From NCBI RefSeq assembly GCF_000246985.2, contig NC_022084.1:1139607-1203606 (forward strand): a DNA stretch of 64,000 nt, in the 5' to 3' direction. Below the pieces are notes generated by a model that saw only the letters and a program-made list of their open reading frames with translations, was not told the origin of the DNA and ran no database searches. Source of the stretch: Thermococcus litoralis DSM 5473. GTDB lineage: Archaea; Methanobacteriota_B; Thermococci; Thermococcales; Thermococcaceae. Positions 11,568 through 56,588 of the stretch are shown piece by piece; position 1 is the stretch's first letter; the number at the start of each line of letters is the position of its first letter. The position numbers and the translations under genes are program-made.

Positions 11568-11625
11568 GGCATCAGCACCGAGATTTGTCCTCATCTCTCG
11601 GAAGCGGCCAAGCTCATCATCTGCC
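11568..11625 (-). ncRNA. C/D-box guide sRNA (2'-O-methylation guide)
   Basis: On the minus strand a complete archaeal C/D layout is present: C box ATGATGA (11614-11620), 12-nt spacer, D' box CCGA (11598-11601), 3-nt loop, C' box ATGAGGA (11588-11594), 12-nt spacer, D box CTGA (11572-11575), with flanking GGCA and TGCC that can pair as a terminal stem. A TATA-like element (GTTATAAG, about 11648-11656) lies about 25 nt before the 5' end. Under the D+5 rule both guides would direct methylation of a G in CACCGAGATTTG (D) and AAGCGGCCAAGC (D'). It starts at the base after the glgA stop codon, in opposite orientation. Targets were not checked. Confidence 0.78.
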
Positions 11626-56188: not shown

Positions 56189-56467
56189 TTATTTGTCGAC
56201 TTCCACGTCTTCAAACTCATCCTCATTTACGACAACAAAAGGAATTTTCATCTTTTTAAGCATCTCAATGAGCTGTTTATGACTTTTTTCTAGCATTTCT
56301 ATTTTGTGTCTCAGACTTTGGTTCTCGATATAGAGGCTCGTCGCTTCTTCAGTTTTCATGTTGAGCTGGGTCTTTAACTCAATTATCTGCTCCTCAAGCT
56401 CCACAACAGAGCGTTCAAGCCGTTCTATTTCTTCATAGAGGTCTTTGCATAATATTCTTTTTACCAT
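56189..56467 (-). CDS. Small coiled-coil protein of unknown function
   Basis: 92 residues. One leucine-zipper-like coiled coil from about 8 to 70 (Leu/Ile every seven), followed by a short strand-like IPFVVVNEDEF and an acidic tail. No DNA-binding domain visible. The ATG lies three bases after the 3' flank of a C/D-box sRNA on the same strand and has no good SD, so the transcript may carry both. Function unknown. Confidence 0.55.
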   Translation of the reverse strand: MVKRILCKDLYEEIERLERSVVELEEQIIELKTQLNMKTEEATSLYIENQSLRHKIEMLEKSHKQLIEMLKKMKIPFVVVNEDEFEDVEVDK

Positions 56468-56469
56468 TG

Positions 56470-56525
56470 CGGTCAGCCCCGCGAAACTTCCTCACCAATC
56501 AGGGGGCTCCAGACTCATCATTCCG
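56470..56525 (-). ncRNA. C/D-box guide sRNA (2'-O-methylation guide)
   Basis: Minus strand: C box ATGATGA (56515-56521), 12-nt spacer, D' box CTGA (56499-56502), 3-nt loop, C' box GTGAGGA (56489-56495), 12-nt spacer, D box CTGA (56473-56476), flanked by CGG and CCG that can pair. A TATA-like TTAAAATAAA (about 56547-56557) is about 27 nt before the 5' end. By the D+5 rule the targets would be a G within CCCCGCGAAACT (D guide) and a C within GGGGCTCCAGAC (D' guide). All boxes match or nearly match consensus. Confidence 0.82.
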
Positions 56526-56588
56526 TTTTTACTTTATAGACCCAATTTATTTTAACCTTTTGTCGCTGAGAATCAGAAATATAGGAAC

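Follow-up and report, generated by a model that had tools for sequence, protein, structure and literature searches.

The minus strand of the analysed window, a stretch of 64,000 nucleotides from Thermococcus litoralis DSM 5473, contains at positions 56471-56523 the C/D-box guide RNA sR23, which most likely guides 2'-O-methylation of the anticodon arm of tRNA-Trp. The start codon of a small coiled-coil ORF follows directly after the sRNA. From comparisons across the Thermococcales we infer that sR23 probably has its own promoter, is co-transcribed with this ORF and is then processed apart from it, acting as a tRNA-Trp guide. The features of the locus are as follows.

56546-56562, minus strand: putative sRNA promoter, with BRE CAAAAGG (56562-56556) and TATA element GGTTAAAATAAA (56557-56546), matching order-wide peaks
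56471-56523, minus strand: sR23 C/D-box guide RNA (RF01138; 71.2 bits, E=2.9e-15)
56521-56515, minus strand: C box ATGATGA, read from the sequence
56503-56514, minus strand: D' guide GTCTGGAGCCCC, pairing with spliced tRNA-Trp GGGCUCCAGAC, with C32 at the methylation position
56502-56499, minus strand: D' box CTGA, read from the sequence
56496-56489, minus strand: C'-like box GGTGAGGA, read from the sequence
56477-56488, minus strand: D guide AGTTTCGCGGGG; candidate target tRNA-Trp G42, eight-base pairing with one G-U
56473-56476, minus strand: D box CTGA, read from the sequence and invariant in 47 distinct attached loci
56468-56472, minus strand: spacer of five bases (CCGCA) that separates the D box from the start codon; a 5-nt gap in 59 of 74 attached loci
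56467-56465, minus strand: ATG of the coiled-coil ORF, read from the sequence
56189-56467, minus strand: 92-residue coiled-coil ORF, present in 85 of the 94 genomes of the order; codon periodicity sets in at the ATG

Identity and distribution of sR23

The match to Rfam family RF01138 (sR23) scores 71.2 bits (E=2.9e-15) against a gathering score of 45 and is far beyond chance; the sRNA is thus a member of a known family, not a new one. The C, D', C' and D boxes, with guides abutting the D boxes, are present both in the sequence and in an alignment of 88 loci. The preliminary description of a C/D-box sRNA with consensus boxes and guides was therefore correct, and its placing of the sRNA 3' end three bases before the ATG is right if the Rfam 3' end (56471) is taken as the reference. 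The CCG of the spacer can pair with CGG at 56525-56523, closing a terminal stem that leaves two bases before the ATG.

RF01138 matches occur in 90 of the 94 genomes of the order, 83 of them passing the family cut-off, and the search of 21 genomes from elsewhere in the phylum found no match. The Rfam family and the RNA described here are alike in sequence, boxes and length, and most of the order's genomes have one strong copy. The RNA itself is the same; what is added here is the tRNA-Trp target and the conserved downstream ORF.

The weak RF01138 matches examined in genomes of groups g3 and g5 were rejected as a different sRNA with another D' guide. These loci (L186, L187, L188, L189 and L191) represent a C/D sRNA with the D' guide TACGGGGCCAC that has parts of the sR23 sequence in common. 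Genome G071 contains, approximately 19 kb from its intact copy, a partial copy of the sR23 5' half (L190), and the sequence upstream of this partial copy resembles that of the intact sR23 of G072. This likeness suggests that in G071 the sR23 unit moved away, leaving its old promoter behind. The window contains a second C/D-box sRNA, matching Rfam RF01119 (sR32) at 11570-11624 on the minus strand with 54.5 bits.

The tRNA-Trp anticodon arm as predicted target

Targets in rRNA had been suggested for both guides, but an exact search of the 16S and 23S rRNAs of this genome for CCCCGCGAAACT and GGGGCTCCAGAC found neither. The D' guide fits tRNA-Trp instead, so that the missing rRNA complement does not refute the sRNA. 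Exact searches of the genome located CCCGCGAAACT only in the sRNA itself and GGGGCTCCAG at four other places, none of which is a tRNA. The tRNA-Trp gene was missed by a tRNA family search because of its long intron, and was located by pattern. Its spliced anticodon arm reads GCGGGCUCCAGACCCGC, with a putative exon boundary placed by the usual 37/38 intron position. The D' guide forms 11 contiguous pairs with spliced tRNA-Trp, so that the base adjoining D' is the only one unpaired. C32 lies opposite the fifth base from D', which predicts Cm32. As the intron likewise begins with an A, the precursor already offers ten of these pairs.

The tRNA-Trp site is the best among rRNAs and tRNAs for all 86 parsed D' guides. 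No parsed genome shows a change in the guide core TCTGGAGCC, and the paired tRNA-Trp bases are identical in every genome with a correctly read arm, several rows that match a wrong CTCCAG (e.g., G000 and G071) being left out of this comparison. Hirata et al. (2019, J Bacteriol) reportedly found m5Cm32 and Gm42 in T. kodakarensis tRNA-Trp. For P. furiosus tRNA-Trp, C/D-guide predictions are on record for C32, C34 and C39, but the predicted C32 methylation was not detected in the tRNAs analysed (PMC7668247), which counts against C32 as the sR23 target. Nevertheless, the pairing and its conservation make tRNA-Trp C32 a well supported candidate target of the D' guide.

The evidence for the D guide is less clear. 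No long match was found for it. The majority D guide can pair with positions 39-46 of tRNA-Trp, in the stem adjoining the D' site, over eight bases, including one G-U, which places G42 at the methylation position. Guide positions 3-9 remain paired in 84 of 88 genomes, and the changes at positions 7 and 8 in genus g3 mostly preserve the pairing. However, with wobble pairs counted, G-rich sites match as many D guides, and 23S offers a comparable fit at 2303 (ACCCGCGGAAG), a site retained as an alternative to tRNA-Trp. The assignment of the D guide to G42 (Gm42) is for these reasons tentative. Four g4 genomes (G049, G055, G060 and G065) have a diverged D guide that has lost the pairing with tRNA-Trp, while the D' guide is kept; in G049 the D guide fits tRNA-Leu instead. 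In the proposed mechanism, sR23 would direct L7Ae, Nop5 and fibrillarin to 2'-O-methylate tRNA-Trp at C32 via the D' guide and possibly at G42 via the D guide.

Probable coupling of sR23 to the coiled-coil ORF

In 74 of the 88 genomes with a readable sR23, the ORF begins 4-12 nt after the D box. The gap is 5 nt in 59 of these attached loci, including the present one, 12 nt in eight, 4 nt in four and 6 nt in three; the genomes are related, and such counts are not independent. A column profile of the 47 distinct attached sequences shows that the end of the D guide, the D box and the next two bases (CC) are invariant. Two to three freely varying bases come next, and the start codon and third-position periodicity follow at once. 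Because the periodicity starts directly at the ATG, the annotated start codon is, on this comparative evidence, correct. Genomes whose ORF is shorter by one codon behind the ATG mostly retain the 5-nt gap, and hence it is the distance between D box and ATG that is kept.

The preliminary description had also raised the possibility of an incorrect start for this gene. A true start deeper inside the ORF would agree with the lack of a strong Shine-Dalgarno (SD) sequence directly before the ATG. It is nevertheless highly improbable, since conserved residues as well as codon periodicity begin at this ATG across the order, the 5-nt gap persists where the ORF is one codon shorter, and ORF copies separated from the sRNA begin at the same residue. 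The second codon of the 47 distinct attached loci is nearly always ATA, its third base being far more conserved than those of neighbouring codons. An identification of the ORF as YabA was rejected: the Pfam score of 30.4 bits (cut-off 30) is attributed to the coiled coil, and the NCBIfam YabA models score far below their cut-offs.

Alignment of 86 distinct upstream sequences on the C box reveals peaks for an A-rich BRE and for TATA between -38 and -27 relative to this box. In T. kodakarensis, transcription starts about 23 bp after the TATA element (PMC4247193). With this distance, the TATA position predicts a start site for sR23 near 56527, at about the sRNA 5' end. The TATA box earlier called well placed can thus be upheld for GGTTAAAATAAA, which is compatible with a full-length sRNA, but not for the nearer TATAAA (56538-56533), which would start transcription inside the sRNA.

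A TATA-like motif is correctly placed for the sRNA in 63 of the 74 attached loci. None of the 74 has such a motif at -48 to -15 of the ATG, so that by motif the ORF has no independent promoter, and in all 74 the 30 nt that follow the D box are free of a run of four T. Such a run follows the D box in six of 12 loci without an attached ORF (Fisher p=2e-6 versus attached loci, relatedness being ignored). Eight separated ORFs serve as natural controls, and usually carry a promoter of their own, combined with either an SD or a leaderless layout. Strong SDs are present in G077, G042, G070 and G030, and a moderate one in G068; G007 and G009 lack an SD but show a TATA-like motif 23-31 nt ahead of the ATG, as in a leaderless layout, and G011 has an SD-like site with no TATA-like match. 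The earlier suggestion of a single sRNA-mRNA transcript is strongly supported by this comparison of attached loci, which lack a promoter or T-run in between, with separated copies that usually have signals of their own.

A weak or unconventional ORF promoter inside the sRNA may be compatible with the motif counts, and sR23 and the ORF might then be separate abutting units. The sRNA evidently does not need the ORF, as in some genomes the two are apart or the ORF is absent. This arrangement is nonetheless quite improbable in view of the nearly fixed spacing between D box and ORF, and of the TATA-like motif that most separated ORFs have before their ATG and all attached ones lack. 

In the probable case of a joint transcript, transcription from the BRE/TATA promoter of sR23, starting at about the sRNA 5' end, would continue into the coiled-coil ORF, such that primary transcripts are sRNA-mRNA dicistrons. 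Assembly of the C/D RNP would protect and release sR23. Translation of the ORF may use the unprocessed transcript as its template. Alternatively, a cut immediately behind the D box would yield a near-leaderless mRNA with about five bases ahead of the AUG, a length that counts as leaderless in T. kodakarensis (8 nt or less; PMC4247193).

The D box region might also be the ribosome-binding site of the ORF, hidden upon assembly of L7Ae and the C/D RNP, which would create a switch between guide and protein. The end of the D guide together with the D box resembles GGAGGTGAT at normal spacing, and in Sulfolobus L7Ae represses translation via a k-turn in the leader (PMC5539422). This region can pair with the 16S tail; the energy is about -7.6 kcal/mol in most attached loci and -8.7 to -9.7 in four g3 loci. 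In the class with a 12-nt gap the pairing site is a GGTG after the D box. The SD-like pairing is, however, only moderate, as the median for large ORFs of the window is -10.2 and 19% of shuffled leaders achieve an equally good pairing. Moreover, several separated sRNAs retain the G run, which thus need not be kept for translation. Altogether, a switch of this kind is unlikely.

Relation to known systems and implications

C/D sRNAs that overlap a downstream ORF whose start codon follows the D box have been described (PMC7994747), as have snoRNAs in 5'-UTRs of T. kodakarensis (PMC4247193). As with sR23, the ORF start codon of the overlapping C/D sRNAs of Tripp et al. 2017 (as reviewed in PMC7994747) lies inside the sRNA or immediately behind it, often past the D box. 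There the sRNA is cut from a longer transcript, whereas for sR23 such processing is predicted. Overlap with an ORF is a minority arrangement (7% of genes) in that study, while sR23 represents one pair with near-fixed spacing across an order. The tRNA-Trp intron C/D guide sR50 (PMC7994747) is likewise a guide for the tRNA-Trp anticodon arm, but acts on C34 and 39 and is the tRNA's own intron, whereas sR23 is a separate gene, predicted for C32. The autoregulation of L7Ae by a 5'-UTR k-turn (PMC5539422) shares with sR23 a k-turn near a start codon that could block initiation; that leader is regulatory, while the leader formed by sR23 is also a guide RNA, its regulatory role being hypothetical. 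No account of the deep conservation of the sR23-ORF pair was found in the searchable literature.

sR23 gains a likely target, which is the tRNA-Trp anticodon arm and not rRNA. In the unlikely case of a switch at the D box, the available L7Ae and C/D RNP would set the choice between guide and small protein across the Thermococcales. Across an archaeal order, a guide RNA stays beside a small protein gene at an almost constant distance, and the genomes in which the two are apart provide natural controls. With this pair, what becomes of sRNA-mRNA transcripts can be tested in an archaeon open to genetics, such as T. kodakarensis.
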